Below, one piece after another: positions 36,752-52,506 of a stretch of 64,000 nucleotides of DNA. The notes beneath the pieces are model-generated. The model worked only from the letters and a program-made list of their open reading frames with translations, had not been told where the DNA came from and ran no database searches. Within the stretch, counting starts at the first letter, position 1; every line of letters starts with the position of its first letter. The DNA is taken from positions 2,132,001-2,196,000 of the forward strand of contig NZ_CP098323.1 of NCBI RefSeq assembly GCF_023657595.1, read 5' to 3'. The translations under genes were made by a program, and so were the position numbers. Origin of the DNA: Cytobacillus firmus. Lineage in GTDB: Bacteria; Bacillota; Bacilli; Bacillales; Cytobacillaceae.

Positions 36752-36754
36752 GGA

Positions 36755-37433: not shown

Positions 37434-37440
37434 ATATACC

Positions 37441-37687: not shown

Positions 37688-38038
37688 ATGACTGTTTCTA
37701 CCTCAAAATTATCTCAGACCATAAAAAAAGATCTCGCTTATCTCTATAATCGTGTGAACCAGGAGATCTATGGAACAGGCGTAAAAAAACAGCGTATTGA
37801 AACTTTTGATGATAGAGTCATCATCTTTGCCCAGCATAAGCGTGTTCAGGCACTGCATATGCTGAGCCAGAACTTCCATCACCTGACCATTTCGGTTGAT
37901 TCAGCATTGATTGTTGAATTCAAATCGCTTTTTAAAGGGATGATTGAAGATGCTCTTCATTTGAAAGTCAAGACGATTTTAAAAGATTATGATCCTGTTA
38001 CTGAAGAAGCATGCACCATTATTTATTTTGAAGAATAG
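37688..38038 (+). CDS. DUF2294 domain protein
   Basis: 116 aa. Features of the family: KKDLAYLYNRVNQEIYGTGVKKQRIETFDDRVII and a second half HHLTISVDSALIVEFKSLFKGMIEDAL. No membrane segment or Cys pair. Function is unknown; family members often sit beside redox or formate genes. Ribosome binding site AGGAGG. It is the first gene right of the divergent promoter region, but a strong hairpin terminator separates it from the permease and shell operon. Confidence 0.85.
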   Translation: MTVSTSKLSQTIKKDLAYLYNRVNQEIYGTGVKKQRIETFDDRVIIFAQHKRVQALHMLSQNFHHLTISVDSALIVEFKSLFKGMIEDALHLKVKTILKDYDPVTEEACTIIYFEE

Positions 38039-38292: not shown

Positions 38293-39621
38293 TTGGAAAA
38301 GCTAAATCCTTGGAAGGTAGGGACTTTGGGATTTCAGCATGTGCTAGCCATGTATGCAGGTGCTGTCATTGTACCGCTGATTGTGGGACCGGCAATTGGG
38401 CTTAATGCCCAGCAGCTTGCTTACTTAATATCGATTGATTTGTTTACCTGCGGGATTGCTACATTGCTTCAAGTTATAGGGGGGAAGCATTTTGGCATTA
38501 GGCTGCCTGTCATTCTGGGATGTACTTTTACAGCAGTCGGCCCGATGATTGCCATCGGGAATTTGCAGGGCATTACTGCCATTTACGGGGCTATTATTGC
38601 TTCAGGTATTATCGTCATGATTCTATCACAATTTATGAGTAAAATTATGAGGTTTTTCCCGCCGGTCGTTACCGGTTCAGTCGTCGCTATTATCGGGGTA
38701 TCACTGATTCCTGTTGCCATGAATAATGCTGCAGGCGGGCTGGGATCACCTGGTTATGGAAGCTCGAAAAATCTATTCCTGGCTGCATTTACACTGGTCC
38801 TGATTATTTTAATGAACAGGTTTTTTAAAGGCTATATGAAAGCGATCTCTGTCCTGCTGTCATTGGTGGCAGGGACAATAGCAGCTTACTTTATGGGGCT
38901 TGTCAGTTTTGCCGAAGTCAGCCAGGCTTCCTGGTTTCATGTCGTTCAGCCGTTTTATTTCGGATTCCCGACATTCAATGCCTCAGCCATCCTTACGATG
39001 ACTTTAGTAGCAATTGTGAGCATGATTGAATCTACTGGAGTATTTCTTGCTCTCGGAGATGTCTGTGAAAGAAAACTGGACTCTAAAGACATTAAGAAAG
39101 GGCTGCGTGCAGAAGGACTGGCTGTTGTTATAGGGGGCATTTTTAACGCGTTTCCTTATACCTCCTTTTCCCAGAATGTGGGGCTGGTAGCTTTGACTAA
39201 AGTAAAAACACGGAATGTTGTTATCGCAGCTGGTGTCATATTGATGACTTTAGGTCTTTTGCCTAAAGTGGCTGCTCTGACTACGATTATTCCTATGGCT
39301 GTCCTTGGAGGAGCCATGATTCCGATGTTTGGGATGGTTATCTCATCAGGAATCAGAATGCTTTCTGCAGTGGATTTCAGCAAAAATGAAAACTTGCTGA
39401 TTGTTGCCTGTTCAATAGGAATTGGACTTGGTTCGGCAGTTGTTCCGCAGATTTTTGAGAGTCTGCCGACAAGTGCACGCCTGCTGGTTGAAAATGGAAT
39501 CGTACTGGGAAGCATCACAGCAATTTTATTAAATTTGGTATTTAATTATAAAGATTTAAATATAAGTGAAAGTGAAAGAATCGAACAGCTGAAAGGAGAT
39601 CACTCAGCTGAAATGATTTAA
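38293..39621 (+). CDS. NCS2 uracil/xanthine permease (PbuX/PucJ-like)
   Basis: 442-aa transporter from TTG 38293, 7 nt after GGGGGG, giving the usual family N-terminus LNPWKVGTLGFQHVLAMYAGA. ATG 38227 is an alternative but lies only 2 nt after GGAGG. About 12-14 membrane segments; the NAT/NCS2 signature is seen in FSQNVGLVALTKVK. Best fit is the xanthine/urate branch rather than uracil. As first gene of the shell operon it would supply the pathway substrate. Confidence 0.9.
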   Translation: MEKLNPWKVGTLGFQHVLAMYAGAVIVPLIVGPAIGLNAQQLAYLISIDLFTCGIATLLQVIGGKHFGIRLPVILGCTFTAVGPMIAIGNLQGITAIYGAIIASGIIVMILSQFMSKIMRFFPPVVTGSVVAIIGVSLIPVAMNNAAGGLGSPGYGSSKNLFLAAFTLVLIILMNRFFKGYMKAISVLLSLVAGTIAAYFMGLVSFAEVSQASWFHVVQPFYFGFPTFNASAILTMTLVAIVSMIESTGVFLALGDVCERKLDSKDIKKGLRAEGLAVVIGGIFNAFPYTSFSQNVGLVALTKVKTRNVVIAAGVILMTLGLLPKVAALTTIIPMAVLGGAMIPMFGMVISSGIRMLSAVDFSKNENLLIVACSIGIGLGSAVVPQIFESLPTSARLLVENGIVLGSITAILLNLVFNYKDLNISESERIEQLKGDHSAEMI

Positions 39622-39691
39622 TAGCAGCTGCTGTAACCATCTGCCTCTTATTTTGAGGCAGAAATCAAATTAATAGATAGGAGCAGTGTAA

Positions 39692-41152
39692 ATGGATTTA
39701 ATTCTGAAAAATGCAAATATTCCGCAGGGAGATCGTCAGGTTTTAACGAATATTCTAGTAAACGAGGGAAAGATTGTTGGCTATACGAATGACATTTCTT
39801 TTCTGAATGCAGCCAAGGTTATTGATATTCAAGGAAAATTAGTTGTTCCAGGCTGTATTGATCCACATACCCACTTTATGGATCCCGGGTTTACTCACAG
39901 AGAAACATTTGCAACCGGCAGCCGTTCTGCAGCAGCTGGAGGCTTGACAACCATTATCGATATGCCATGCTGCAGCAAGCCATCTGTTCGGGATGGGGAT
40001 AGCTTCAATAAAAAAATCGGTCCAATCAGAGATCAGGCTTATATTGATTACTGCTTCTGGGGCGGCATGACTGGTGAAGATGCACGTGAAGGCTGGATTG
40101 ATAATATTTACCCTCAGATAGACCAGGGAGTTGTTGCATTTAAAGTTTACATGACTCCTTCTGTGCCTACCTTCCCTAAAGTATCTGACGCAGAAATGCT
40201 GGAGATTTTTAAAAACGTTGCAAAAACCGGTCTTCCTATTGGTGTTCATGCTGAAAACTATGATATCTGCACATTCAATTCGAAAAAACTTGAAAAAGAA
40301 GGCCGCCTTGACGGACCGGCATGGGCTGAAGCTCGTTCAAGCCTCGCTGAGAAAGTGGCCATTGAACTGATTCTCAGCTTCGCGGAAGCTACAGACGCAC
40401 GTGTACATGTCGTACATATGAGCACAAAGGAAGGCGTCGAGCTGGTAAAAGCTGCAAAGAAGCGTGGTGTCAAGGTTACAGCTGAAACCTGCCCTCACTA
40501 CCTTGTTTTAAATGCTCAGGATTCCATGTCAGAGCGGGGCTCCTATGCCAAAATTGCTCCTCCGCTGCGAGGAAAAGAGGATAACGAATCCCACTGGCAG
40601 GCACTGGCTGATGGAACAATCGACTTCGTCGGAACCGACCATGCCCCATATGAAATTGCCACCGAAAAGGATTATCCAGGTGCAACGATTTGGAACACCT
40701 TCCCTGGCATTCCGGGTGTAGAAACGATGGTGCCGATCCTTGTCAGTGAAGGCTTAAATAAAGGACGCATATCCTTATCGAGATTTGTAGAAGTAACGAG
40801 CCGTAATGCCGCCATTCATTATGGAATTTACCCTAAGAAAGGCTCAATGGAAATTGGCAGCGATGCTGATTTCACGGTTATCGACCTTGAAAAAGAGTAT
40901 GTAATTGATGAACAGAAAACAGAATCAATGGCTAAATACAACCCGCTGCATGGCATGAAACTAAAAGGGAAGCCAGTACAAACCATTATCCGCGGAAGCG
41001 TGGTCTTCGAAGAAGATAAGGGGATAGTTGGAGAAGCGGGATATGGAGAATATGTTCCTCGTCAAAGCATCCAGAGACTTGAAAGAACATTGAAGTATGA
41101 AAAATACGAGGCGGTAAATGTGAAAACAAAAGATCCTGTAGCACAGCAATAA
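39692..41152 (+). CDS. Cyclic amidohydrolase (allantoinase/hydantoinase/dihydroorotase superfamily)
   Basis: 486 aa. Binuclear metal site: GCIDPHTHFMDPG (H59, H61), a carboxylated Lys in VAFKVYM (K151), H186 in GVHAEN, H242 in HVVHMS, and D316 in GTDHAPY. It therefore hydrolyses a cyclic amide or ureide ring. Candidates are allantoinase, hydantoinase or a xanthine-ring-opening xanthine amidohydrolase; the TDHAPY motif differs from the SDHSPC of classical allantoinases as I recall it. Second in the shell operon, directly after the xanthine-type permease, which favours xanthine. That last step is inference. Confidence 0.9.
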   Translation: MDLILKNANIPQGDRQVLTNILVNEGKIVGYTNDISFLNAAKVIDIQGKLVVPGCIDPHTHFMDPGFTHRETFATGSRSAAAGGLTTIIDMPCCSKPSVRDGDSFNKKIGPIRDQAYIDYCFWGGMTGEDAREGWIDNIYPQIDQGVVAFKVYMTPSVPTFPKVSDAEMLEIFKNVAKTGLPIGVHAENYDICTFNSKKLEKEGRLDGPAWAEARSSLAEKVAIELILSFAEATDARVHVVHMSTKEGVELVKAAKKRGVKVTAETCPHYLVLNAQDSMSERGSYAKIAPPLRGKEDNESHWQALADGTIDFVGTDHAPYEIATEKDYPGATIWNTFPGIPGVETMVPILVSEGLNKGRISLSRFVEVTSRNAAIHYGIYPKKGSMEIGSDADFTVIDLEKEYVIDEQKTESMAKYNPLHGMKLKGKPVQTIIRGSVVFEEDKGIVGEAGYGEYVPRQSIQRLERTLKYEKYEAVNVKTKDPVAQQ

Positions 41153-41178
41153 ATATATATCGAGGGAGGCTGAAGGGA

Positions 41179-41769
41179 TTGGAACTTAGGGGAAAAAAGC
41201 ACTGTGTAGTCATTATTGATATGTTAAACGACTTTATCGGTGAAAAAGCAGCATTAAGGTGTGAAAATGGCGAAAAAATTGTTCCTAAAATTCAAGAACT
41301 TATTGAATTCGCACATAATCACAATATTCAGGTTGTGCATGTTCAGGAAGCTCACAGAAAGAATGACCGTGATTTCCGTGTAAGACCTGTCCATGCAGTA
41401 AAAGGGACCTGGGGTTCGGAGTTCATTCCAGAGCTTCAGCCCGATGAGAGCAAAGGAGATTATGTGATCCAAAAGAGGCGGCATAGTGCATTCAGTTATA
41501 CTGATTTTGATCTCTTCCTGAGAGAAGAAGAAATTGATACGGTCGTCCTTACTGGAGTCTGGACCAATGTATGTGTACGCAGTACCGCCTCTGATGCCTT
41601 GTATCATGGCTATAATGTGATTTGCGTATCAGATGCCACCGCTTCGCAGGATGATGATATGCACGTATCAGGTCTAAGGGACATTGACATTTTCGGAGAT
41701 ATATTATCAACAGAAGAATACAAAGAACTGGCTAAAAAGAAATTCTCCCAAGACGAATCCGTTGTATAA
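41179..41769 (+). CDS. Isochorismatase-family cysteine hydrolase
   Basis: 196 aa from TTG 41179 (GGGAGG upstream). Catalytic triad residues are D14 in VIIDMLNDF, K99 in IQKRRHSAF and C132 in WTNVCVRSTASDA, with the preceding cis-peptide region TGVWTN. The family includes N-carbamoyl hydrolases, biuret and triuret hydrolases and ureidoacrylate hydrolase, so cleavage of a ureido or carbamoyl group is plausible. Here it could turn 4-ureidoimidazole-5-carboxylate into the 4-amino compound, CO2 and ammonia. Confidence 0.9.
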   Translation: MELRGKKHCVVIIDMLNDFIGEKAALRCENGEKIVPKIQELIEFAHNHNIQVVHVQEAHRKNDRDFRVRPVHAVKGTWGSEFIPELQPDESKGDYVIQKRRHSAFSYTDFDLFLREEEIDTVVLTGVWTNVCVRSTASDALYHGYNVICVSDATASQDDDMHVSGLRDIDIFGDILSTEEYKELAKKKFSQDESVV

Positions 41770-42349
41770 CTCATCTCAAGTTCCAAGGAAAAAACGAATT
41801 TTAGTGGGCATAACCGGAGCAAGCGGATCATTGTATGCATATACACTGATCCGAGCTCTTCATCAATTAGAGATCGAAACGCATTTAATTGCTACGGAGA
41901 TGGGAGAAAAAGTAATGCAATTTGAATGCGGGATCAAGATGGACGAGCTGAAGGAATATGCCGCTATCCACAGCAACCGGAATCTTTTCGCTGCGGTTGC
42001 CAGCGGATCCTTTAAAACAGACGGAATGGTGATTGTGCCATGTTCGATGAATACATTGGGTGCGATTGCAAATGGAGTCGGCGATACGCTTCTAAGCAGG
42101 GCTGCCAGTGTGGTTTTAAAGGAGAATAGAAAGTTTATTATTGTTCCGAGAGAAGCCCCTTTTAATTTGATTCACCTGCGCAATATGACTCTCCTAGCTG
42201 AGAGCGGGGCTTGCATAATGCCAGCATCTCCAGGCTTTTATCATAAGCCGACGGAAATCTGGGAGCTGGCCAACTTTATGGTGGCGAGGATATTGGACAT
42301 GCTGGATATTGACCATGAGCTCTTGGAGAGATGGGGGGAAAAGGCATGA
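41762..42349 (+). CDS. UbiX-type flavin prenyltransferase
   Basis: 195 aa from TTG 41762, which overlaps the upstream stop (TTGTATAA). This start is uncertain, because no strong ribosome binding site is seen and the conserved part begins at RILVGITGASGSLYAY. Other motifs: VIVPCSMNTLGAIANG, IIVPREAPFNLIHLRNM and MPASPGFYHKPTEIWE. UbiX makes prenylated FMN for UbiD decarboxylases. The partner UbiD gene follows with an ATGA overlap. Confidence 0.92.
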   Translation: MYNSSQVPRKKRILVGITGASGSLYAYTLIRALHQLEIETHLIATEMGEKVMQFECGIKMDELKEYAAIHSNRNLFAAVASGSFKTDGMVIVPCSMNTLGAIANGVGDTLLSRAASVVLKENRKFIIVPREAPFNLIHLRNMTLLAESGACIMPASPGFYHKPTEIWELANFMVARILDMLDIDHELLERWGEKA

Positions 42350-43683
42350 ACCCTGTAACAATGAGGGCTTTGCTGGACAGATGGGATAGCATGGGACTTC
42401 TTTATCGGGTGAAAAAAGAGGTGGACCCTCTCTATGAACTGGGAGCAGTGATAAACACGAAAAATGGCAGACAGCCTTTCTTATTTCAGAAAATCAAAGG
42501 CTATCAATCTTCCATGGCTGCCGGTTTGGGAGGAGACAGAGAGCTTTTGGCTGACAGCATGGGAATCACCCCATCTGAACTTATTCCTAAAATCATTGAA
42601 TCAATTGTGAATCCTATTCCGACAACTTTAAGGCAAACTGGTCCTGTCCAGGAGAATCTTGTAACCGGGGAATTCGACCTGGCAGATTTGTTTCCTATAC
42701 CAACCTATCATGCAGAAGACTCAGGTGCATATTATGTGGCAGGAATTCTGGTAGTTAAAGACTTATCCGGCAAAAAGAGGTATACCTCGATTCGCAGGAT
42801 GCAATACCTTGGCGGTAATCGAACGAACATTCTTATAACCTCACCGGAACTGATGGAGCAATATGCCCATTATGAAAGCATCGGCGAACCGATGGAGGTG
42901 GCTGTTATGTTTGGTGTTGTTCCAGCGGTTGTCCTAAGTTCTCAGATCAGTACGCATTTGTACCATACCGACAAATTGGATGTAGCAGGTGCACTGCTTG
43001 GCCAGTCTCTGGATGTGGTTCAGTGCAAAACGGTCGATTTGGAAGTGCTGGCTGATGCGGAAATTGTTCTGGAAGGCAAGATGCTTCCATTTGAAAGAGA
43101 ACTGGAAGGTCCGTTTGGCGAACTGGCCGGTTATTATGGCACCAGAACGCCACAGCCGATAGTAGAATTTTCAGCCGTTACTTACCGGAATAACGCTATC
43201 TCACAGACTATTTTTCCATCAAGTTATGAAGAAAGGCTGCCAATGGCGCTTGTTAGGGAAGCTACACTTTTAAGCACCGTCAGGCAGGTTGTTCCAAATA
43301 TCAAAGCTGTACATATCCCGATGGGCGGTGTCGCCCGCTATCATGCAGTCATACAAATTGAAAAGAAGCATGATGGTGACGGCAAACAGGCGGCACTTGC
43401 AGCTTTTGCAAGCGATAAGGATTTAAAGCATGTGGTTGTTGTGAATGATGACGTCGATATCTTTGATTCGGATGATGTTGAGTGGGCTATTGCGACAAGA
43501 GTGCAGGCGGGGGATGATATTTTTATCGTACAGGGTGCGAAGGGATCACCGCTCGAGTCTTCCCATCATTTAAAAGGAGTCAGTGATAAGATGGGCATCG
43601 ATGCCACCTATCCGCTTGGAAAAGAAGAGTTATTTAAAAGAACTTCAATCCCCATTGAAGTGAATCTTGAAGACTATCTTTAA
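42346..43683 (+). CDS. UbiD-family prenyl-FMN decarboxylase
   Basis: 445 aa from ATG 42346, overlapping the UbiX stop and preceded by GGGGGGAAAAGG. UbiD landmarks are YTSIRRMQYLGGNRT, the acidic ELEGPFGELAGYYG that contributes the catalytic Glu, and VVNDDVDIFDSDDVEWAIATR. UbiD enzymes carry out reversible decarboxylation of unsaturated or (hetero)aromatic acids. Its place between a ureido hydrolase and the shell genes suggests 4-aminoimidazole-5-carboxylate as substrate (inference). No obvious encapsulation peptide is seen at either end. Confidence 0.92.
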   Translation: MNPVTMRALLDRWDSMGLLYRVKKEVDPLYELGAVINTKNGRQPFLFQKIKGYQSSMAAGLGGDRELLADSMGITPSELIPKIIESIVNPIPTTLRQTGPVQENLVTGEFDLADLFPIPTYHAEDSGAYYVAGILVVKDLSGKKRYTSIRRMQYLGGNRTNILITSPELMEQYAHYESIGEPMEVAVMFGVVPAVVLSSQISTHLYHTDKLDVAGALLGQSLDVVQCKTVDLEVLADAEIVLEGKMLPFERELEGPFGELAGYYGTRTPQPIVEFSAVTYRNNAISQTIFPSSYEERLPMALVREATLLSTVRQVVPNIKAVHIPMGGVARYHAVIQIEKKHDGDGKQAALAAFASDKDLKHVVVVNDDVDIFDSDDVEWAIATRVQAGDDIFIVQGAKGSPLESSHHLKGVSDKMGIDATYPLGKEELFKRTSIPIEVNLEDYL

Positions 43684-43708
43684 GCTTTTGCAGTAGAGGA
43701 GGTCAAAA

Positions 43709-43972
43709 ATGAAGGCAATTGGCTTGATAGAAACTAGGGGCTTGACAGCAGCTATTGAAGCGCTGGACGCAATGGCAAAAGCAGCAAATGTCAGCTTAGT
43801 AGATTTAAAGAGAGTCGGATCCGGACTTGTCACCGTCATTATTGAAGGGGATGTGGCAGCAGTCACAGCTGCTGTTGAGGTTGGGAAGACTGCTCACACC
43901 ACGGCTGGAGGAGAACTGGTTTCGGCAAATGTAATACCCCGCCCTCATTCAGAACTTCGTAAAATTTTATAA
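43709..43972 (+). CDS. BMC-H microcompartment shell protein (PduA-like)
   Basis: 87 aa, one BMC domain: MKAIGLIETRGLTAAIEALD, pore loop RVGSGLVTVI and the hexamer-edge motif [11 protein letters not shown]. The GSG pore sequence matches that of PduA, which favours passage of small polar molecules. GGAGG precedes the ATG. First of three BMC-H genes here. Confidence 0.96.
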   Translation: MKAIGLIETRGLTAAIEALDAMAKAANVSLVDLKRVGSGLVTVIIEGDVAAVTAAVEVGKTAHTTAGGELVSANVIPRPHSELRKIL

Positions 43973-44004
43973 GAGTATGTGTCAAAAGTGGAGGTGCATA
44001 ATGT

Positions 44005-44964
44005 GTGTCTGACTTTATTAAAAGTGTTGTAGAAGAAGTAATGAAGCCCTACAGCAAGCAAAAAGAAAATCCTATTAATGGAGCTCCCAGTTTTCCCCCG
44101 CCCCGCAGCCAGCCGGGATTGAAGTCGGGTATACCGGGCATAAACCGGCCAAATTATCAGAAAGAAAAAATGAAAAAAAGAATAGCTGTTAATCATGCGG
44201 ATGCGCCACAGTCTGCTAATCCACACCAAAACGTTAGAAGGCAGACAGTTTCACTTTCTTCACCTATGCCTTCCGCTAAAGGAAAAATGGCACAGCTTCA
44301 GACCCTGTCCCTGGTACAAGGGAAACAGCGGGTTACTGCCAGGGCTGAATCCGCAGAAACAAAACCCTGCCGAAATGCAAGAGAAAGCCAGCTTATCGGA
44401 CAAACGCCGGAGGGTGTGAAAGTCTGGCTATTCTCTGATCTTCACCCCACCTTGGAAGGCTCCTTCCAGCGGGAATTAAAAACAGCCTCCATCGGGGTAG
44501 TGACTGCAAAAAAATGTACGCCCGGACAGCTATTTTTACTGAATGACCTTTTAAGAGAGTTTCCTTCTTTAAAATATTGCCTGTCATGGGACAAAAACAG
44601 CGGGCAATCCTTTTCGCTGGAGCTTTATGAAGAGGATTATGAAGTACTGTTAAACGCCTTAAAGAGCTTCTTCAAAAAACTTTCCCAAAAATCATTTAAA
44701 ACGATTACAGCACATAAAGAAAAATCCCCCAGTCCGTGGCTTACAAAACAATTAGGGATTAACTCGTCAATTGGCGGTGTAGCTGTCATTGAAGGAATTG
44801 ACTATTATTCGGGTATTTTGCTCCTTGACCGGCAGATGAAAAAAAATACGGCTGAACACATTAATTTTTTAATAGAGAAGGAATATGTGCTTCTTCACGG
44901 TCAGTTTGATGAGGTATCCCGGATCACGGATCTGCTTTGTAAGGAATTCGACAGGATTAAATAA
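44005..44964 (+). CDS. Putative microcompartment cargo or scaffold protein, new family
   Basis: 319 aa from GTG 44005; the ATG at 44001 opens a frame that ends at once. The first 17 residues, SDFIKSVVEEVMKPY, form an amphipathic helix like known encapsulation peptides. Residues about 18-130 are low-complexity and rich in Pro, Gln, Ser and basic residues (FPPPRSQPG, QSANPHQNV), probably disordered. The C-terminal 190 residues are globular, with VWLFSDLHP, KKCTPGQLFLLNDLLREFPSLKYC and SIGGVAVIEGIDYYSGILLLDRQM. I do not recognise a family. Position between shell genes supports a microcompartment role. Confidence 0.8.
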   Translation: MSDFIKSVVEEVMKPYSKQKENPINGAPSFPPPRSQPGLKSGIPGINRPNYQKEKMKKRIAVNHADAPQSANPHQNVRRQTVSLSSPMPSAKGKMAQLQTLSLVQGKQRVTARAESAETKPCRNARESQLIGQTPEGVKVWLFSDLHPTLEGSFQRELKTASIGVVTAKKCTPGQLFLLNDLLREFPSLKYCLSWDKNSGQSFSLELYEEDYEVLLNALKSFFKKLSQKSFKTITAHKEKSPSPWLTKQLGINSSIGGVAVIEGIDYYSGILLLDRQMKKNTAEHINFLIEKEYVLLHGQFDEVSRITDLLCKEFDRIK

Positions 44965-45049
44965 GGCTTGGCCAGCAAGTCACAGATCAGCTCAATAATT
45001 CCAGAAAATTTAGCCGGTCTGACAATTTCATATGAGGAGGATTTTTCAG

Positions 45050-45463
45050 TTGCAAGCATTGGGTTTGATTGAAACCGTTGGTTATTCAACAGCAGTTTCT
45101 GCAGCAGATGCAGCCGTAAAAGCAGCAGATGTAGAAATTGTAGGAATTGAAAAAGTAATAGGAGTGGATGGCTACCTTGGCGTCACAATCCATTTTAACG
45201 GTGATGTTGCGGCTGTAAAGTCTGCAGTCGATGCCGGTGTGAGTTCAGCAGAGAGAATAGGAAAAGTAATTTCTGCTCATGTAATCCCGCGTGCACACAG
45301 TGAAGTGGCAGGGAAGCTGCTTCCGAATTTCAAACTGAAAGACATGCATCCGGAAGCAGGTGCTGAAAAAGAGGTTAAATCCGTAGATAAGCCACATGAA
45401 AAAAAGCAAGTTAAAAAACAAATTGAACCTGATGAAAATGATAATGATAAACCATCAGTTTAA
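45050..45463 (+). CDS. BMC-H shell protein with altered pore and charged C-terminal tail
   Basis: 137 aa from TTG 45050; the upstream ATG at 45032 contains the ribosome binding site AGGAGG. A BMC domain [27 protein letters not shown] and [11 protein letters not shown] is followed by about 45 residues of Lys- and Glu-rich tail. The pore region reads [13 protein letters not shown] instead of KVGSGLVTVI, so the central pore probably differs in size and charge. The tail may face the lumen or the cytosol and bind cargo. Confidence 0.93.
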
Positions 45464-45486
45464 TAAACTTAAGGAGGAAACACACA

Positions 45487-45771
45487 ATGGGTGAAGCATT
45501 GGGATTAATCGAGACGAAAGGCCTTGTTGGCGCAGTAGAGGCAGCGGATGCAATGGTTAAAGCAGCAAATGTGGAGATCTGCGGATATGAAAAAGTGGGA
45601 TTTGGTCTTGTAACAGTTATGGTCAGAGGAGATGTTGGAGCGGTTAAAGCAGCGACCGATGCAGGAGCCGAAGCTGCCAGCCGAGTAGGAGAACTCATCT
45701 CGGTCCATGTCATTCCGAGACCGCACAGCGAAGTTGAAAGAGCTCTATTATCAAAAAATATCGGTGAATAA
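45487..45771 (+). CDS. BMC-H shell protein (PduA/PduJ-like)
   Basis: 94 aa: [27 protein letters not shown], pore [10 protein letters not shown] with GFG instead of GSG, and [15 protein letters not shown]. Ribosome binding site AAGGAGG. Probably the main hexamer of the shell facets, judged only from its canonical length and sequence. Confidence 0.96.
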
Positions 45772-45773
45772 GC

Positions 45774-46505
45774 ATGAGGAGCAAAAAGCAGAGTGTTATG
45801 GCAAAAAACACTCTGCAGGCGCTTTATATGCGAAATGAAAACTGGAGAGACAGAAAACCTCATATCCTGGCTCTATTAACCTCTCATTTGATAGGAATGG
45901 ATCCGGGATTTTCTTACTTGAAAAAGTTAACAGAGGAAGATATTACACTTAGAATGACTGCTGAAGAAGAATTGCTGACCCAATTTCCGCTTGAGGAGTT
46001 AGTTTCTCTGACCGGAAATGACGATTGGATCTCTGCTTCCATGATTAATGATCAGCTTCTTGATCAGTTTGATGAAATTCTTTTGCCAATTCTATCATTT
46101 TCTCTGATAGCAGATCTATTGAACTGTAACGAACAAAGGCCTTTGGTGCGGATTATACTAATGGGTTTATTAAAAGGAAAACGGGTCACGGCGTTGAAGG
46201 CTGGAGGTGATCCTTTCAGTCAGTATTGGAAACTGAAAGGAATGGATAAAGGGCCGGACATATTAAAAAGAAAGCTTAATGGGCAGATGGCAGAGCTGAA
46301 GGTGCTTGGCATAAGATTAATAGATTTCAATGATAGGGCAGACTTTGCTGTTCATCAAATGAAGAAAACGGTTATTACCGATGAGACAGTCCGATTTGCC
46401 TATTTGAACAATCTTGATCAGCTGACTGTTCCAAAAGGGGCTATCATAACCCCCCTGGCAAAAGATACAGCAAAGGAACTTAAGATCGAAATTATTTTAC
46501 ATTAA
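45774..46505 (+). CDS. Flavoprotein-like microcompartment-associated protein
   Basis: 243 aa, start 3 nt after the preceding stop. Motifs such as ILPILSFSLIADLLNCNEQRPLVRI, LMGLLKGKRVTALKAGGDP and the C-terminal LTVPKGAIITPLAKDTAKEL recall the flavoprotein-like proteins found in several microcompartment loci. The FMN site cannot be confirmed by eye. An inner ATG at 45798 is an alternative start. Function unknown; a role in redox handling or cargo assembly is possible. Confidence 0.65.
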   Translation: MRSKKQSVMAKNTLQALYMRNENWRDRKPHILALLTSHLIGMDPGFSYLKKLTEEDITLRMTAEEELLTQFPLEELVSLTGNDDWISASMINDQLLDQFDEILLPILSFSLIADLLNCNEQRPLVRIILMGLLKGKRVTALKAGGDPFSQYWKLKGMDKGPDILKRKLNGQMAELKVLGIRLIDFNDRADFAVHQMKKTVITDETVRFAYLNNLDQLTVPKGAIITPLAKDTAKELKIEIILH

Positions 46506-46518
46506 GGGGTAGGTCTTT

Positions 46519-46797
46519 ATGCAAATGGGAATAGTGGTTGGCCGTGTAACTGCCACAAGAAAAGATGATAATCTGGTGGGCACAAAACTATTAATTACCC
46601 AGCCTATAGGATTGGACGGCTCAATGTTACCGAACCCCATTATAACCGTTGATACTGTTGGTGCAGGCATTGGCGAGAAAGTCATCTATGTGACTGGAAG
46701 CATGGCATCAAGAGCGGTTCAGAATAAAGATGCACCTATCGATGCTGCCATTATCGGAATTATTGACAGTGTAGAAGGAATGGAAACAGGGGGTTAA
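46519..46797 (+). CDS. EutN/CcmL-type pentameric vertex protein (BMC-P)
   Basis: 92 aa: MQMGIVVGRVTATRKDDNLVGTKLLITQPI, VDTVGAGIGEKVIYVTGSMASRA and DAAIIGIIDSVE, the full BMC-P pattern. It forms the pentamers that close the icosahedral shell. The single copy and the three BMC-H genes suffice for a minimal shell; no trimeric BMC-T gene is visible. Confidence 0.96.
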   Translation: MQMGIVVGRVTATRKDDNLVGTKLLITQPIGLDGSMLPNPIITVDTVGAGIGEKVIYVTGSMASRAVQNKDAPIDAAIIGIIDSVEGMETGG

Positions 46798-46800
46798 TAA

Positions 46801-48612
46801 ATGGATGCAAAAAATATCAAAAAGGCAGTGCAGTACCGCAAGCTTATTGATGTTTTGCTTGATTCCAGCCAGTATGCCGATGTAGTTCTGAAAGGGGGAT
46901 ACTTTATTAATGTAATCACCCGTGAGATCTATGAAGCGGACGTTGCGATGAAAGGCGAATATATATTAATGGCAGGGGACGCAAAAGACTTAATTGGGCC
47001 AAAAACGATAGTTGAAAACATTCAGGGGAAATTCGTTTGTCCAGGGTTCATTGATTCTCATATGCATTTTGAGAGTGCGATGCTGACTTGTACGGAATTC
47101 TCCAAGCTTTCCATTCCGACAGGAACCACCACGCTGATAGGTGATCCGCATGAAATAGGGAACGTCCTGGGTGTTCACGGAATGCAGGCAATGATTGAAG
47201 AAGCTAAGACACTTCCAAACCGGGTATTATTCACGGTACCTTGTGCTGTGCCTGATGCTCCCGGTCTTGAAACATCCGGCTTTGATGTGACATCAAAGGA
47301 TATGAAAGAGCTCCTGGCAGACCCATATGTGCAGGGAATTGGGGAGATTCAAAGCTTCAGCAATATAGGTCCCGTGTATGAGCATGCACCGGAATTAATA
47401 GACGATCTTGTTGCCGCAGTTTCATATGCAAACAGCATAGGAAAAACCGTTGAAGGGAACGCCCCAGGATTGTTTGGCAAAGAGCTTGCCGCCCATATTA
47501 TCAGCGGAGGTAACCATGTGTCCTGCCATGAAACTACAACGAAAGAAGAAACAGTCGAAAAGCTGCGCAATGGGGTAAGTGTGTTCATGCGTGAAGGCTC
47601 TTCCCAAAGGAATATGGCCGACTGTATTCGTGCCATAACAGAGGATGGGCTGGATTCCCGCCGTGCAATCCTCGTATCAGATGATATGGTGCCTGCTGAT
47701 CTATTAAATTACGGACATATGAATGATATCGTCCGCCGAACCATTGCAGTGGGGATTGATCCAGTGGAAGCCATCCAAATGGCGACCATTAATCCTGCCA
47801 CCCACTTTGGCTTTAAGGATGTGGGGGTTATTGCACCAGGCAAAAGAGCAGATGTCGTTGTGATCAGTGATCTGAACAATATGACAATTGATCAGGTATA
47901 CCTGGCAGGTAAAAAAGCAGCTGAAAAAGGCGAATTAACTATAGATATTGCTCCTTACATATATCCGGAAAGTGTGAAAAAGTCAGTGAAGCGGAAGCCT
48001 GTAACAGTGAAGGAAATCGCCATTGAAGCTCCAGGCAGCCGTGCAAAAGTAAGGGCAATTGAAGCGATACCTTTCCAGAACTTAACCGGCGGAAGCGAAT
48101 ATACGCTGAATGTCAAAGAAGGCATTGTGCAGCCATGCCTAAAGCAGGATGTTCTGCCTCTGCTGGTTGTTGAGCGCCACGGCAGAACCGGAAAAATCGG
48201 CAAGACGTTTCTTCATGGCTTTGATTTGAAAAGCGGAGCCATAGCAGAAAGTGTAGCCCATGATACACACAATATCATTGTTACAGGAACTAACTACGTA
48301 GACATGGCCATGGCGGTTAACCGTGTCATTGCCATGGATGGCGGAATAGCGATGATAAAGGATAGCAAAGTAGTAGGTGATCTTCCTCTCCGGATTGGCG
48401 GTTTAATGACAGATGAATTAACTGGAAAAGAAATGAGTGAAAAGGTCGACGAATTATCGCAGCTTGCCAAAGAAGTTCTGGGCTGCGGTATGGAAGTTCC
48501 CTTTATGCATTTATCATTCTGGTCATTGGTAACAAGCCCCAAATGGAAAATTACAGATATGGGGCTTATTGATGTAGATAAGTTTGAGGTCATTCCGACC
48601 ATTATTAATTGA
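46801..48612 (+). CDS. Adenine-deaminase-family amidohydrolase, divergent active site
   Basis: 603 aa, 4 nt after the BMC-P gene. The whole length aligns with adenine deaminase: GFIDSHMHFESAM, GDPHEIGNV, bridging Glu E182 in GIGEIQ, H243 in VSCHETT, MREGSS and SDDMVPADL. The His of the GHA motif (H202 in the canonical copy at 28616) is Asn here (N220 in VEGNAPGLF), and TDHE has become SCHE. A changed metal or substrate site is therefore likely. I infer an aminoimidazole or related aminoheterocycle deaminase; adenine remains possible. Confidence 0.88.
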   Translation: MDAKNIKKAVQYRKLIDVLLDSSQYADVVLKGGYFINVITREIYEADVAMKGEYILMAGDAKDLIGPKTIVENIQGKFVCPGFIDSHMHFESAMLTCTEFSKLSIPTGTTTLIGDPHEIGNVLGVHGMQAMIEEAKTLPNRVLFTVPCAVPDAPGLETSGFDVTSKDMKELLADPYVQGIGEIQSFSNIGPVYEHAPELIDDLVAAVSYANSIGKTVEGNAPGLFGKELAAHIISGGNHVSCHETTTKEETVEKLRNGVSVFMREGSSQRNMADCIRAITEDGLDSRRAILVSDDMVPADLLNYGHMNDIVRRTIAVGIDPVEAIQMATINPATHFGFKDVGVIAPGKRADVVVISDLNNMTIDQVYLAGKKAAEKGELTIDIAPYIYPESVKKSVKRKPVTVKEIAIEAPGSRAKVRAIEAIPFQNLTGGSEYTLNVKEGIVQPCLKQDVLPLLVVERHGRTGKIGKTFLHGFDLKSGAIAESVAHDTHNIIVTGTNYVDMAMAVNRVIAMDGGIAMIKDSKVVGDLPLRIGGLMTDELTGKEMSEKVDELSQLAKEVLGCGMEVPFMHLSFWSLVTSPKWKITDMGLIDVDKFEVIPTIIN

Positions 48613-48617
48613 TCATT

Positions 48618-48642
48618 AAAGCGGCGTTCTCTGCCGCTTTTC
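48618..48642 (+). terminator. Weak internal hairpin in the shell operon
   Basis: AAAGCGGC (48618-48625) pairs with GCCGCTTT (48633-48640) but only four T follow. It probably lowers, rather than stops, transcription into the last four genes. Confidence 0.45.
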
Positions 48643-48671
48643 ATATATACAGCAGGTAAAGGAGGAATAGC

Positions 48672-49355
48672 ATGGGAGTTAAGCTTGTCGACTTAACACA
48701 GGAAATTTATCAGGGGATGCCTGTTTTTCCCCTTCATCAGAAAACAATGATCTTCCCGAATATCTCCCACGAAGAAAGTGAAAAGCAAATTGGATTTATG
48801 TTTGCTACTAATAATCTATTAATCAATGAACATGGTCCAACTCATAGTGATGCAACTTATGAGTATGATCCTAACGGCCAATACATCGATGAAATGCCGC
48901 TTGAGTATTTTTACGGGCCGGCAGTTTGCCTTGATGTATCCCACATCCAGCCTCATCAATATATAACAGACCGTGATCTCGAGGATGCACTGAGGAAATC
49001 ACAGCAGTTTATTGAAAAAGGAGATATCGTCCTCCTCTATACAGGCCATTACAATCGGTCTTATGGTACCGACAAATGGCTCACCACTTATACCGGCCTG
49101 GATTATCAGGCAGCAAAATGGCTGGCTGATAAAGGTGCAGTCAATATAGGCATTGATGCCCCGGCCATTGACCATCCGGATGATCCAAAGTACTCCGGAC
49201 ATCTTATTTGCCGTGAATACGGAATAACCAATACTGAAAATCTTTGCAATCTCGACCAGATCGCAGGCATGCGATTTCTATATTTCGGACTCCCTCTCAG
49301 AATTCGGAAAGGAACGGGATCTCCGATTCGTGCGGTTGCAGTTTTCATTGAATAA
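48672..49355 (+). CDS. Cyclase-family metal-dependent hydrolase (KynB/isatin hydrolase-like)
   Basis: 227 aa. N-terminal VDLTQEIYQGMPVFP and the motif INEHGPTHSDATYEYD correspond to the HxGTHxDxPxH metal site of the cyclase family, with deviations (PTH for GTH, TYEYD for PxHF). VLLYTGHYNR, GIDAPAIDHPDDP and a C-terminal LYFGLPLRIRKGTGSPIRAVA fit as well. The family hydrolyses formamides and opens small lactam rings. Here imidazolone ring opening to formiminoglycine is a reasonable guess. Confidence 0.85.
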   Translation: MGVKLVDLTQEIYQGMPVFPLHQKTMIFPNISHEESEKQIGFMFATNNLLINEHGPTHSDATYEYDPNGQYIDEMPLEYFYGPAVCLDVSHIQPHQYITDRDLEDALRKSQQFIEKGDIVLLYTGHYNRSYGTDKWLTTYTGLDYQAAKWLADKGAVNIGIDAPAIDHPDDPKYSGHLICREYGITNTENLCNLDQIAGMRFLYFGLPLRIRKGTGSPIRAVAVFIE

Positions 49356-49376
49356 CAACAAAGGCTGGTGTTCTAA

Positions 49377-50003
49377 ATGAAAGAGGTTTTTAACAGAGGC
49401 AAGATCCGGGACGAAATTATTATCCCGCCGTATGAAGGAAGAAGCGCACTGATTCACAAAGGGGAAGAGCTGATTATTATTGATATGGAAGGAAAACAGG
49501 TTGGGGACTTTGTCTGTTTTAACTATGAAGATCCCGAGGAACATGTTTCACCTGTCCATATGCGGGCTTCACTAAGCAGCATACGGCTTAAAACGGGAGA
49601 CTGGCTATACAGCAACCGCCGCCGTCCGCTAATGCAGCTTTTGGAAGATACTGTTGGAAAACATGATTTCTTCTTTCCGGCATGTGATTATTACCGCTAC
49701 AAAGTTGATTTCGACAAAGAGGACCATCCTAATTGCCATGATAATATTGCGGATGCATTGAAAAAGTATAATATTCATCCTGCTGTTATTCCGGATCCTA
49801 TTAATATCTTTATGAATAATGTTCTTGATGATGCCGGGGATTATGTCATTGCCGAACCCCTTTCCAAGCCTGGCGATTACATAAGGCTGAAAGCGTTGTG
49901 TGATGTTGTCATTGCCTGTACAACATGTTCACAGGACATGGCGCCTGTTAATGGGTTTAAGGTGACCCCTATTAAAATGCAAATTATGGAGGCGGATTCA
50001 TGA
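49377..50003 (+). CDS. DUF1989 (urea carboxylase-associated) family protein
   Basis: 208 aa: RDEIIIPPYEGRSALIHKGEELIIIDMEGKQVGDF, SPVHMRASLSS, DYYRYKVDFDKEDHPNCHDN and ALCDVVIACTTCSQDMAP, the DUF1989 pattern with conserved Cys and His. Known members include the two subunits of carboxyguanidine deiminase, which hydrolyse a C=N group. Deimination of formiminoglycine to N-formylglycine is my inference here. Its stop overlaps the next start (ATGA). Confidence 0.88.
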   Translation: MKEVFNRGKIRDEIIIPPYEGRSALIHKGEELIIIDMEGKQVGDFVCFNYEDPEEHVSPVHMRASLSSIRLKTGDWLYSNRRRPLMQLLEDTVGKHDFFFPACDYYRYKVDFDKEDHPNCHDNIADALKKYNIHPAVIPDPINIFMNNVLDDAGDYVIAEPLSKPGDYIRLKALCDVVIACTTCSQDMAPVNGFKVTPIKMQIMEADS

Positions 50004-51172
50004 ATGATATTCAGTTTCTTCAGCATCTGCTCCAGATTGACAGCTCCAATCCGCCCGGAAACGAGCATTTAGTGACTGAAGCCTTTATTAACAGATGCAA
50101 GCAAAATGGTCTGCCGTTTAAAGTGACCATGCTTGATGCGACCCGAAGCAATTTTGAAGTTACGCTTCCAGGAAAAAGCGGTAAACAGCTATTCTTATGC
50201 GGGCATATGGATACAGTTTCACCTGGAACAGGAGAATGGGTTTACTCCCCTTTTTCAGGAGAAATCGCAAATGGCCGGATTTATGGCAGAGGAGCTTCTG
50301 ATATGAAGAGCGGCCTTGCAGCAATGTTCCTGGCTTTGGAGCAGCTGTATCTCTCCAATACTGATCTGCCTGCAGACGTTACCTTTCTGGCAACAGCCGG
50401 GGAAGAAGTCGACAGCTGCGGTGCCAGGACTTTTTTAAAAGAAAACGATGGCCGAAAAATTGATGCACTTGTCATTGCCGAACCGACAAATGAAAAAATT
50501 GTGATTGGCCATAAGGGAGCCCTTTGGCTTGAGATCACAGCTTATGGGAAAACCTCTCACGGTTCCATGCCGGAACAGGGAATCAATGCAGTAGATCATA
50601 TGCTGAAAATAATCCGGGTATTGGATGAAATGAAAATTGAATGGAAGACAGAAAAGAAGCCCCTCGGACAAAGCAGCCTGGCTGTTACTATGATTGAAGG
50701 CGGAGTGCAGACCAATGTCATTCCAGATAAATGCAGCATCAGAGCAGATATTAGAACAGTTCCCCCTCAATCCCATTCCCTTTTTATAAACAAGCTAAAA
50801 TCCAAACTCGATGTTCTCTTGGATCAGGGAGAAATTTATAAATACAGTATTGAGACCCTTCTTGACCGTCCATCTATTTTAACTGATCCTGCCCGGGACA
50901 TTATTCAAATTGCGCAGATGGTAAAGGACGAATCGGAAGCGGACCATTACGGGGTGTCCTACTATACAGATGGTGCCGTACTTAATCCAAGAAGTGAAAT
51001 TCCTACCTTGATTTATGGCCCAGGTGATGAAAAGCTGGCGCATAAGCCAAATGAGTGGGTTAGTCTGGCGGCATATCAGCGCTCCATTCAATTTTACAGA
51101 CAGCTTATTATGTCATATGGGAAGCTGGAGCCGTCAGAAGTCAGTCCAATACGAGGGGGAGGAAGAAATTGA
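50000..51172 (+). CDS. M20 family deacylase (ArgE/DapE-like)
   Basis: 390-aa dizinc amidohydrolase. Metal ligands and catalysis: H69 and D71 in FLCGHMDTVSPG, D101 in GRGASDMKSG, E135-E136 in TAGEEVDS and E161 in VIAEPTNE. The dimerisation domain GHKGALWLEITAYGKTSHGSMPEQGINA follows. Such enzymes cleave N-acyl amino acids; N-formylglycine would fit the proposed pathway, while N-carbamoyl or peptide substrates are alternatives. GGAGG precedes the ATG. Confidence 0.9.
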   Translation: MNDIQFLQHLLQIDSSNPPGNEHLVTEAFINRCKQNGLPFKVTMLDATRSNFEVTLPGKSGKQLFLCGHMDTVSPGTGEWVYSPFSGEIANGRIYGRGASDMKSGLAAMFLALEQLYLSNTDLPADVTFLATAGEEVDSCGARTFLKENDGRKIDALVIAEPTNEKIVIGHKGALWLEITAYGKTSHGSMPEQGINAVDHMLKIIRVLDEMKIEWKTEKKPLGQSSLAVTMIEGGVQTNVIPDKCSIRADIRTVPPQSHSLFINKLKSKLDVLLDQGEIYKYSIETLLDRPSILTDPARDIIQIAQMVKDESEADHYGVSYYTDGAVLNPRSEIPTLIYGPGDEKLAHKPNEWVSLAAYQRSIQFYRQLIMSYGKLEPSEVSPIRGGGRN

Positions 51173-52506
51173 GCAGTATTCTGATAAAAAACGCTGAAAT
51201 TATTACAATGAATGCAGCTGAAGAAATCATTTTCGGGGATTTATATATTGTAGATGACCGCATTGCCGACATTGGACAGAATTTAACACATAAAGCGGAT
51301 AAAGTAATCGATGCCACTGGAAAGACGGTCATTCCAGGATTTATTCAGACACATATCCATCTGTGCCAGACATTATTCCGCGGGCAGGCTGATGATTTGG
51401 AGCTTCTTGATTGGCTGAAGCAGAAGATCTGGCCGCTTGAGGCATCACATGATGAAGAGTCTATCTATTATTCTGCTATGCTCGGAATTGGCGAATTGCT
51501 CCAGAGCGGAACAACAACTGTAGTGGACATGGAAACCGTTAATCATACGGAATATGCCTTTCAGGCCATTGCCGAAAGCGGCATTCGGGCACTTGCCGGA
51601 AAGGTCATGATGGATAAAGGGGATGAGGTCCCTGTTCCGTTAAGAGAAAATACCTCTAAATCCATCCAGCAAAGCGTGGATCTCCTTGAAAGATGGCATA
51701 ATCGTGAAAACGGTCGCATACAATATGCCTTCTGTCCCCGATTTGTCGTTTCCTGCACAGAGGAATTGCTGACAAATGTCAGGGATCTCTCAGCACAGTA
51801 CAACGTAAGGGTCCATACTCATGCATCCGAAAATGCCAGTGAAATTCTCCTTGTTGAAAGAGAGCTTGGCATGCGGAATGTAGTCTATCTGGACAGCATT
51901 GGCCTTGCCAATGAAAGGCTGATACTTGCCCATTGTGTTTGGCTTAATGAAGAAGAAAAAAGAATCATTAAAGAACGGGGCGTAAAGGTCAGCCATTGTC
52001 CGGGATCCAATCTAAAACTGGCATCAGGTGTGGCAGAGATTCCATCATTACTGGATCAGCAGGCATTTGTCAGCCTTGGTGCTGATGGGGCTCCCTGCAA
52101 TAACAACCTGGATATGTTTAATGAAATGAGATTGGCTGCAATCATTCAGAAGCCTGTGCACGGCCCAACTGCAATGAATGCAAGAACCGTCTTCCGAATG
52201 GCGACAATCGGCGGAGCGAAGGCAGTTGGAATGGAACAGGAAATCGGAAGTCTGGAGCCCGGAAAGAAAGCAGACCTTGCTATCCTTAATCTGAATGATT
52301 TTCATATATATCCGTCATTTGATATCGATACTATCTCAAGGATAGTCTATTCAGCCACTCGTGCAGATGTTGAATCCACCATTGTGAACGGCAAAATGGT
52401 GATGGAAAATCGGAAGCTGAACACAGTCGATAAAGAAATGGTTTTAAATGAAGCGAACACCAGCATAAAGAGGCTGCTCAAAAGATTAGAGACAGCAGTT
52501 TATTAA
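51169..52506 (+). CDS. Amidohydrolase, guanine-deaminase-like
   Basis: 445 aa from TTG 51169, overlapping the M20 stop and preceded by GGGGGAGG. Cytosine/guanine deaminase-type motifs: PGFIQTHIHLCQTLFRG, CPRFVVSCTEELL, VHTHASEN, LILAHCVWL, VSHCPGSNLKL and SLGADGAPCNNNLDM. The PRFxxSCTEELL segment is typical of guanine deaminases, which would make xanthine. Other members deaminate 8-oxoguanine, methylthioadenosine or triazines, so the substrate is not certain. Last gene of the operon. Confidence 0.88.
   Translation: MSSILIKNAEIITMNAAEEIIFGDLYIVDDRIADIGQNLTHKADKVIDATGKTVIPGFIQTHIHLCQTLFRGQADDLELLDWLKQKIWPLEASHDEESIYYSAMLGIGELLQSGTTTVVDMETVNHTEYAFQAIAESGIRALAGKVMMDKGDEVPVPLRENTSKSIQQSVDLLERWHNRENGRIQYAFCPRFVVSCTEELLTNVRDLSAQYNVRVHTHASENASEILLVERELGMRNVVYLDSIGLANERLILAHCVWLNEEEKRIIKERGVKVSHCPGSNLKLASGVAEIPSLLDQQAFVSLGADGAPCNNNLDMFNEMRLAAIIQKPVHGPTAMNARTVFRMATIGGAKAVGMEQEIGSLEPGKKADLAILNLNDFHIYPSFDIDTISRIVYSATRADVESTIVNGKMVMENRKLNTVDKEMVLNEANTSIKRLLKRLETAVY

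Follow-up and report, generated by a model that had tools for sequence, protein, structure and literature searches.

A predicted Xau (BUF1)-type xanthine microcompartment in Cytobacillus firmus with a proposed folate-independent ending

Gene Content of the Locus

We describe here a predicted bacterial microcompartment (BMC) operon for xanthine breakdown in Cytobacillus firmus. The DNA analyzed, referred to as the window, is a stretch of 64,000 nucleotides (positions 2,132,001 to 2,196,000 of contig NZ_CP098323.1, assembly GCF_023657595.1), and genome-wide searches covered the single contig of 4.98 Mb that represents this genome. The operon, at positions 38293–52506 of the window, comprises 16 closely spaced open reading frames (ORFs) on the plus strand, including genes for three BMC-H and one BMC-P shell proteins, a permease, and a series of hydrolases and a decarboxylase (Table 1). 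For XauA, XauE, and the like we use the nomenclature of Ravcheev et al. (2019), who predicted a Xau pathway for the same gene set in five Firmicutes, Bacillus included (PMC6620236). The XauE of the window is 99% identical to that of C. firmus strains.

An earlier note on this DNA, made from the sequence alone, had described a purine-degrading microcompartment operon, and all of the genes that it named, including the three BMC-H genes and the one for BMC-P, lie at the place and on the strand that it gave, while the shell protein encoded at 44005–44964, a predicted BMC-T, was not mentioned. Its claim that an aldehyde dehydrogenase, phosphotransacylase, and signature lyase are lacking was borne out, as none of these had a match among the 16 ORFs in the libraries searched, and the locus does not qualify as an aldehyde-type metabolosome of the Eut, Pdu, or glycyl-radical (GRM) kind, which is recognized by an aldehyde dehydrogenase plus a signature enzyme. 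What we take to be the catalytic motifs of the enzyme families are intact in the proteins of the window, and almost every key residue of these motifs is unchanged in the relatives aligned. The true start of UbiX is probably downstream of the TTG used for its coordinates.

Table 1. Genes and RNA elements of the operon and of the adjacent purine cluster, in window coordinates.
Feature	Position	Strand	Evidence
True adenine deaminase (adenine to hypoxanthine)	28616–30358	-	TIGR01178, 678.6 vs 472.5 bits; 38% identical to XauE
Purine (hypoxanthine/guanine-type) permease, by resemblance	30397–31764	-	No NCBIfam match
Xanthine dehydrogenase operon: XdhC-like protein, molybdenum subunit, FAD subunit, MocA-like protein, and iron-sulfur subunit	32148–37243	-	NCBIfam, position, and homology
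Purine riboswitch aptamer RF00167, leader of divergent xanthine dehydrogenase operon	37426–37523	-	65.1 bits vs gathering 37; E 2.1e-9
MpsC/DUF2294-like small protein, upstream of permease	37688–38038	+	PF10057, 27.0 bits vs cut-off 23
Xanthine permease	38293–39621	+	TIGR03173 (pbuX), 562 bits vs cut-off 414
XauA cyclic amidohydrolase, predicted to open the xanthine ring	39692–41152	+	Allantoinase/hydantoinase/dihydroorotase family
Isochorismatase-family cysteine hydrolase, predicted carbamoyl removal	41179–41769	+	PF00857
UbiX flavin prenyltransferase (prenylated FMN (prFMN) cofactor)	41684–42349	+	TIGR00421, 207 vs 108.9 bits
UbiD-family decarboxylase, predicted on 4-aminoimidazole-5-carboxylate	42331–43683	+	TIGR00148, 310 vs 244.85
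BMC-H shell protein 1	43709–43972	+	PF00936, whole-genome match; EutM-like, below cut-off
Tandem BMC-T-like shell protein, 319 aa	44005–44964	+	Predicted fold; no Pfam match
BMC-H shell protein 2, with C-terminal extension	45032–45463	+	PF00936, whole-genome match
BMC-H shell protein 3	45487–45771	+	PF00936, whole-genome match
BMC-associated 243-aa protein, predicted UbiX-like flavoprotein fold	45774–46505	+	TIGR02536, 44.6 bits, below cut-off 152.6
BMC-P vertex shell protein	46519–46797	+	PF03319, 100.9 vs 25 bits
XauE adenine-deaminase paralog, predicted 4-aminoimidazole deaminase	46801–48612	+	TIGR01178, 468.9, just under cut-off 472.5
Cyclase-family hydrolase, predicted imidazolone ring opening	48672–49355	+	PF04199
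DUF1989 protein, proposed formiminoglycine deiminase	49377–50003	+	PF09347, 177.2 vs 27 bits
M20 deacylase, proposed N-formylglycine deformylase	50000–51172	+	TIGR01910, 252.8 vs 217.6
TRZ/ATZ-type aminohydrolase, proposed guanine deaminase	51169–52506	+	PRK07228, 733 vs 522

We regard the identification of this locus as a Xau-type xanthine compartment as highly likely. The BMC-H and BMC-P genes occur without an aldehyde dehydrogenase gene; those for XauA, the cysteine hydrolase, UbiD, XauE, and the cyclase stand alongside them, with homologs in Alkaliphilus transvaalensis (L119) and in L070, taken by its strain number as the Bacillus fordii DSM 16014 of Ravcheev et al. (2019); and xanthine dehydrogenase genes, with scores below equivalog cut-offs, lie nearby. 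The gene for the published last enzyme, tetrahydrofolate formimidoyltransferase (XauG), lies outside the cluster in two Bacillus genomes (2_A_57_CT2 is named), which was read as a step outside the shell (PMC6620236), and since it is thus also outside the cluster in two founding members we treat XauG as a pathway step rather than as locus-defining.

Conservation of the Locus

Orthologs of XauE (79–100% identity) are present in 26 of 151 genomes of the same family, in which other matches are at most 40% identical, and in a sample of the phylum (n = 398) XauE was found in one Bacilli genome besides that of the window and in 11 others at 56–63% identity. A scan of named species genomes gave at least 80 loci, 72 of them with a true XauE by a set threshold. 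The locus counts below refer to the 72 XauE loci among those listed and to the 65 of these that have both BMC-H and BMC-P genes in the fetched stretch. These 65 BMC loci, which had been selected by XauE, all contain UbiD and three BMC-H genes (65/65 for both), UbiX is present in 64/65, the cyclase in 58/65, the cysteine hydrolase in 56/65, and XauA in 55/65, while the fetched stretch of 41/65 includes a gene for a xanthine dehydrogenase subunit. Because UbiD and the shell genes are found in every one of them, UbiD, shell, and XauE form the invariant core of the locus, and UbiD and XauE are the enzyme pair that would make and consume 4-aminoimidazole. Retention of this compound by the shell, as suggested in the earlier note, is by this context the likely job of the compartment, and the conserved co-occurrence of the gene set that the note had looked to extends, with variations, to these 65 listed loci of other genomes, beyond chance. 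Its view that the gene order follows the pathway steps is not general, as many clostridial loci have the cyclase on the opposite strand and the formimidoyltransferase gene first; in L082, L086, and L130 XauA and the hydrolase are nearby on the opposite strand.

Seven of the listed XauE loci are without one or both kinds of shell gene in the stretch, and BMC-P was not found in the genomes of L108, L116, L118, and L125, of which L116 and L125 are metagenome-assembled genomes (MAGs). Some of these cases weigh against an obligatory compartment: L116, L118, and L125 have XauE and the cyclase with no UbiD match in the genome and no shell, while Thermosyntropha lipolytica (L108, L144) has XauE and, elsewhere, XauA, the cysteine hydrolase, and UbiD, again with no BMC-P in the genome. 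The shell is therefore apparently not strictly needed, and the chemistry can exist without a compartment.

Three side observations concern such loci. In the Clostridiales MAGs L116 and L125 a formimidoyltransferase accompanies the cyclase and XauE, a set that possibly salvages imidazolone or 4-aminoimidazole from another source. Mycolicibacterium litorale (L118) has XauE, cyclase, M20, a RidA-like protein, an aminohydrolase, and a purine-type permease together, as would be expected of an actinobacterial version of the end of the pathway. A MAG labeled Andreesenia angusta has two copies of XauE, one in a full xau locus (L143) and the other (L120) beside a cyclase with no shell genes. In L143 the genes for XauA, cysteine hydrolase, UbiX, UbiD, three BMC-H, BMC-P, XauE, and xanthine dehydrogenase are consecutive. 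The growth of Andreesenia angusta is restricted to urate, xanthine, and guanine as substrates, and the word microcompartment is absent from the main text of the paper on this organism.

Enzymes and Substrate of the Predicted Pathway

The metal and lysine motifs of XauA, which we take to be catalytic, are invariant in 56/56 aligned ORFs, and the aspartate, lysine, and cysteine motifs that we likewise assume to be catalytic in the cysteine hydrolase are present in 57/57. The closest solved structure to the cysteine hydrolase is PDB 3hb7 (E 2e-73), which is 82–89% identical to the 12 best-matching hydrolases of clostridial xau loci, so that, judged by sequence, a solved structure very probably exists for some Xau enzyme. 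The cyclase-family hydrolase is related to kynurenine formamidase and to isatin hydrolase, which acts on a five-membered lactam ring. The best PDB match of UbiD, over nearly its full length, is 6h6v (E 1.1e-122), which is PtHmfF, a furan-dicarboxylate decarboxylase (PMC8988006).

For the last gene of the operon the earlier note had proposed a guanine-deaminase-like enzyme. The TRZ/ATZ-type assignment holds, and the best NCBIfam name above cut-off is 5'-deoxyadenosine deaminase (PRK07228), with the NCBIfam guanine deaminase model scoring below its cut-off (262.5 vs 375.4 bits). Guanine is nevertheless favored as the substrate because a purine riboswitch is located within the xau operon, directly upstream of the ortholog of this gene, in two relatives (L072:14374–14473 and L077:13139–13241; 2/6 loci scanned).

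The purine class of the substrate and the order of the pathway, both put forward in the earlier note, are supported by the genomic context. It is improbable, in our judgment, that the compartment instead degrades another cyclic ureide, such as allantoin or a hydantoin, or an imidazole carboxylate, with xanthine dehydrogenase as a mere neighbor. Several points do weigh in that direction. XauA barely passes the cut-off of the TIGR03178 allantoinase (AllB) model (358.2 vs 357.85 bits), and database naming would for this reason call it an allantoinase; other allantoinase models are far under cut-off, while a dihydroorotase-type subfamily model scores 316 vs 279 and hydantoinase models are approached. 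A full XauA is missing from the fetched stretch in 10/65 of the listed BMC loci. In two of these (L098 and L106) a contig end truncates the locus, and five (L084, L085, L087, L110, and L113) show no full XauA within the stretch, to which the search was limited, but in L088, L090, and L107 the UbiD-XauE-cyclase core is accompanied by a creatininase-family gene, which may be another ring-opening enzyme or the marker of a different entry substrate. In addition, 24/65 listed loci show no xanthine dehydrogenase gene in the fetched stretch. Against a substrate of this kind are the xanthine-permease model, which scores well above its cut-off, the xanthine dehydrogenase genes in the other 41/65 stretches, the purine riboswitches, the full locus in a MAG labeled as an obligate fermenter of urate, xanthine, and guanine, and the presence of a UbiD decarboxylase, for which allantoin offers no evident use.

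We find it hardly credible that the genes serve ordinary aerobic purine catabolism via urate and allantoin with the shell genes as passengers, despite the presence of xanthine dehydrogenase and of an enzyme resembling allantoinase. The earlier note had argued against this route from the lack of uricase, and indeed PF01014 was not found in the genome of the window, with Bacillus subtilis as a positive control, which led us to reject the urate route. No ureidoglycolate-type enzyme is among the family matches of the operon, and UbiD and the shell genes, kept together in 65/65 listed BMC loci, have no place in such a pathway.

Proposed Replacement of the Formimidoyltransferase

The missing last enzyme of the known pathway is an informative point that the earlier note did not address, nor did it address the roles of DUF1989 and M20. 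The formimidoyltransferase domain FTCD_N (PF07837) was not found in the genome of the window, with Thermotoga as a positive control, and was not found in the genome of L070 (G560, fordii DSM 16014). Of the 72 listed XauE loci, 38 contain DUF1989 and 24 contain formimidoyltransferase, with both in none and neither in 10. The same pattern is seen genome-wide, as 25 of 50 named XauE genomes contain the operon-type DUF1989 (at least 67% identity) and 22 contain FTCD_N, with both in none and neither in three, namely Thermosyntropha, Mycolicibacterium litorale, and the Andreesenia MAG. This test covered the genomes of 50/73 loci, and the other 23 consisted for the most part of near-duplicates and short contigs (L058, L059, L061, L064, L066, L067, L069, L071, L073, L079, L081, L091, L094, L098, L106, L111, L116, L122, and L124–L128). 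The operon-type DUF1989 was found in 24/151 family genomes, all of them with XauE, and in 0/125 without it, and other DUF1989 proteins in the family are at most 39% identical to that of the operon. Within the 26 Bacillaceae genomes with XauE, 24 have this DUF1989 and no FTCD_N, while G011 and G081 show the reverse (Fisher p 0.003). In G081 genes for formimidoyltransferase and cyclodeaminase lie within the xau operon after the cyclase and the aminohydrolase. In a quick XauE tree G011 and G081 do not share a branch but each pair with a locus that has DUF1989 (L074 and L072; both 100), which implies two separate changes of ending; this tree excludes 11 rows that were short or nearly duplicated others (L058, L059, L061, L066, L067, L069, L071, L079, L094, L098, and L124). 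Outside the Bacilli, FTCD_N is present in 10/11 XauE genomes vs 131/371 others in the phylum sample (p ~3e-4, computed with 241 negatives where the listing gives 240).

The DUF1989 family includes carboxyguanidine deiminase (PMC11271267, PMC11410670), and as formiminoglycine is, like carboxyguanidine, an amidine-type substrate, its hydrolysis to N-formylglycine is a natural guess for the operon enzyme. In trimethylamine N-oxide (TMAO) demethylase (Tdm) the metal site consists of three cysteines, one histidine, and one aspartate (PMC12560246). By our reading of the alignment these correspond to C103, C120, C184, H117, and D187 of the operon DUF1989, which are present in 36/36 aligned rows, and because these residues are invariant the protein looks catalytically intact. 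The M20 gene overlaps that of DUF1989 by four bases, accompanies DUF1989 in 28/38 listed loci at 400 bits or more, and is never together with formimidoyltransferase in the 72 listed XauE loci. In Mycolicibacterium litorale a more distant M20 (256 bits) stands beside XauE and the cyclase with no shell, an arrangement that lends weak support to the M20 link from outside. We consider it likely that DUF1989, with or without M20, replaces the formimidoyltransferase.

A number of findings weigh against such a replacement. FTCD_N is rare in Bacilli in any case (1/16 in the phylum sample), so that shared ancestry explains much of the exclusion seen across the 50 genomes, and the contrast within the family rests on two exceptions, G011 and G081, the former with its two formimidoyltransferase genes elsewhere in the genome rather than in the operon. 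M20 is missing from 9/38 listed DUF1989 loci, in Fictibacillus and Paenibacillus, which is a weak point, and the Andreesenia MAG, which may be incomplete, has neither FTCD_N nor an operon-type DUF1989. The absence of M20 and the general lack of FTCD_N in Bacilli would both suit an arrangement in which the pathway and compartment are the same but DUF1989 and M20 serve a side reaction or another nitrogen compound, with formiminoglycine cleared by an unlinked enzyme or excreted. We regard this as unlikely, since the DUF1989 subtype occurs in 24/26 family genomes with XauE and 0/125 without, and the only two exceptions carry FTCD_N, one of them within the operon. Somewhat less probable still is a direct cleavage of formiminoglycine by DUF1989 to glycine and formamide, with M20 doing something else. 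HutG carries out such a formamide-releasing cleavage on formiminoglutamate, and it would account for the nine DUF1989 loci without M20. The DUF1989 chemistry described in the accessible literature, however, is either deimination, as in carboxyguanidine deiminase, or demethylation, and the overlap of the M20 and DUF1989 genes here and their frequent company elsewhere also argue against it.

Two other candidates were considered and lowered. The last gene as a HutF-like formiminoglycine deiminase was given less weight in view of the scores of HutF models (55–120 bits vs 733 for PRK07228), and further because homologs of this gene lie beside formimidoyltransferase in 16 of the 24 listed loci of that kind, and also in G081, and are missing from 13/38 listed DUF1989 loci. 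Similarly, L107, an uncultured Coprococcus MAG, was lowered as an independent change of ending, as its XauE groups with Bacilli rows (98, on a long branch), which fits transfer of the whole locus.

Shell Proteins

The protein encoded at 44005–44964 has no Pfam match, and sequence models miss its identity as a shell protein. Structure prediction gives two fused BMC domains in tandem, as in a divergent PduB/EutL-like BMC-T, and the protein has a conserved N-terminal helix and a long disordered linker. By its fold it is a predicted BMC-T shell protein, and no existing annotation for such a component was found. The 243-aa protein gave an AlphaFold2 model (predicted local distance difference test score 87.6) with UbiX (6qlg) as the best Foldseek match (E 1.8e-6), and this flavoprotein-like fold yielded no function.

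A second BMC locus is present in the same genome (G000:C1:2492955-2502097; L146), which by its sequence features looks like a locus for ethanolamine (Eut) use; a weak match to the 243-aa family (36 bits) was seen for one ORF in it.

Flanking Purine Genes and Riboswitches

The purine cluster extends beyond the operon, as the minus strand at 28616–37243 encodes a true adenine deaminase and a permease together with the xanthine dehydrogenase operon. In the latter PucD scores 696.5 bits, under its equivalog cut-off of 783.65, the XdhC-like and MocA-like proteins are likewise below their cut-offs, and the FAD and iron-sulfur subunits were assigned by position and by homology to xau-linked xanthine dehydrogenase genes. 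The permease at 30397–31764, presumably of the purine type, has homologs within many clostridial xau loci, while the MpsC/DUF2294-like protein is found in 33/38 listed DUF1989-type xau loci.

Purine riboswitch matches like that of the window are located on the xanthine dehydrogenase leader in three of six relatives scanned (L062, L065, and L072). The aptamer of the window retains what we take to be the ligand-contact C of guanine-type aptamers. The J3/1 letters of this aptamer and of that from L065 deviate from the common form, and for this reason the ligand of the window aptamer may not be guanine. A xanthine-II riboswitch, the features of which are U51G and insertions (PMC9295807), was not adopted as a reading, as the common J2/3 letters are kept.

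Proposed Pathway and Its Significance

The analysis shows the gene content, how it is conserved, the pattern of replacement across genomes, and the predicted BMC-T fold. We propose a pathway for which we infer all of the substrates and all locations inside or outside of the shell. The flanking deaminases and xanthine dehydrogenase would funnel adenine, hypoxanthine, and guanine to xanthine. XauA would open the six-membered ring of xanthine to give 4-ureidoimidazole-5-carboxylate, from which the cysteine hydrolase would take off the carbamoyl group to give 4-aminoimidazole-5-carboxylate. Within a shell composed of three BMC-H proteins, BMC-P, and the cryptic PduB-like BMC-T, the N-terminal helix of which may tether cargo, UbiD with prFMN from UbiX would decarboxylate this compound to the reactive 4-aminoimidazole, to be deaminated immediately by XauE to 4-imidazolone. 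The cyclase-family hydrolase would then open the five-membered ring to give formiminoglycine. In place of the clostridial formimidoyltransferase, DUF1989 would hydrolyze the amidine, releasing ammonia and N-formylglycine, which M20 would then split into glycine and formate. That DUF1989 is a formiminoglycine deiminase that opens a folate-independent end, and at the same time that a shell with a cargo-tethering BMC-T keeps 4-aminoimidazole between UbiD and XauE, is a combination for which we judge the case to be evenly balanced.

Descriptions of the reactions of anaerobic xanthine breakdown go back to the 1950s, but their genes were reported as undetected in a purine fermenter in 2012 (PMC3519856) and were only predicted in 2019 (PMC6620236). 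Hence the step-by-step assignment that the earlier note had thought to be new was already published as the Xau microcompartment, although context supports the substrate class and pathway order that it gave. The gene set and compartment had been catalogued and the pathway predicted, and the DUF1989/M20 ending looks to be new, with the BMC-T-like shell component as an addition; no paper on a microcompartment-linked DUF1989 protein or formiminoglycine deiminase was found in the open literature, to which the search was confined. A locus of culturable Bacillaceae that has a natural enzyme swap and is linked to an obligate purine fermenter opens the pathway, and the function of a microcompartment without aldehyde chemistry, to direct experiment. 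If the proposal is true, a branch of the DUF1989 family would gain a function, the published model would need a different last step for Bacilli, and the purpose of a shell where no aldehyde is made would become apparent. Bacilli would then run a clostridial fermentation pathway without formimidoyltransferase, with a folate-free end that yields glycine and formate.

Comparison with Known Systems

The components of the locus can be compared with several known families. The closest solved relative of the operon UbiD is HmfF, also a UbiD-family enzyme and a decarboxylase of a five-ring heteroaromatic compound, with a furan as its substrate where the operon UbiD is expected to use an imidazole. The tandem BMC-T proteins PduB, EtuB, and EutL are ~10% identical to the protein encoded at 44005–44964, which differs from them in having no Pfam BMC match, a long linker, and a conserved N-terminal helix. 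The carboxyguanidine deiminase CgdAB and TMAO demethylase share the fold family of the operon DUF1989, and the metal-site residues of TMAO demethylase correspond to those given above, but CgdA and CgdB form a pair whereas the operon DUF1989 is encoded by a single gene in a different genomic setting.

With the pathway of purinolytic clostridia (Gottschalkia/Andreesenia; Rabinowitz and Pricer, 1956, cited in PMC3519856) the intermediates are assumed to be identical; the clostridial enzymology ends in a folate-dependent transfer whereas the ending proposed here is folate-free. Candidate genes for this clostridial pathway were reported as undetected in C. acidurici (PMC3519856), and it was stated in PMC6620236 that no Xau enzyme was characterized.

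The closest system overall is Xau/BUF1. The name BUF1 reportedly comes from Axen in 2014. A BUF1 is equated with the xanthine-related Xau compartment in PMC8156839. The gene families in common with the window are the amidohydrolase, a second amide hydrolase, the UbiD-type decarboxylase, the adenine-deaminase-like enzyme, the cyclase, shell, permease, and xanthine dehydrogenase, and the pathway proposed as far as formiminoglycine is the same. The published last enzyme is XauG (step 7), in place of which the operon of the window has DUF1989 and M20, and the BMC-T-like shell protein is an addition over the published system. Taken as a whole, we consider it fairly probable that this Bacillaceae locus belongs to the Xau (BUF1) type and has a folate-independent ending.

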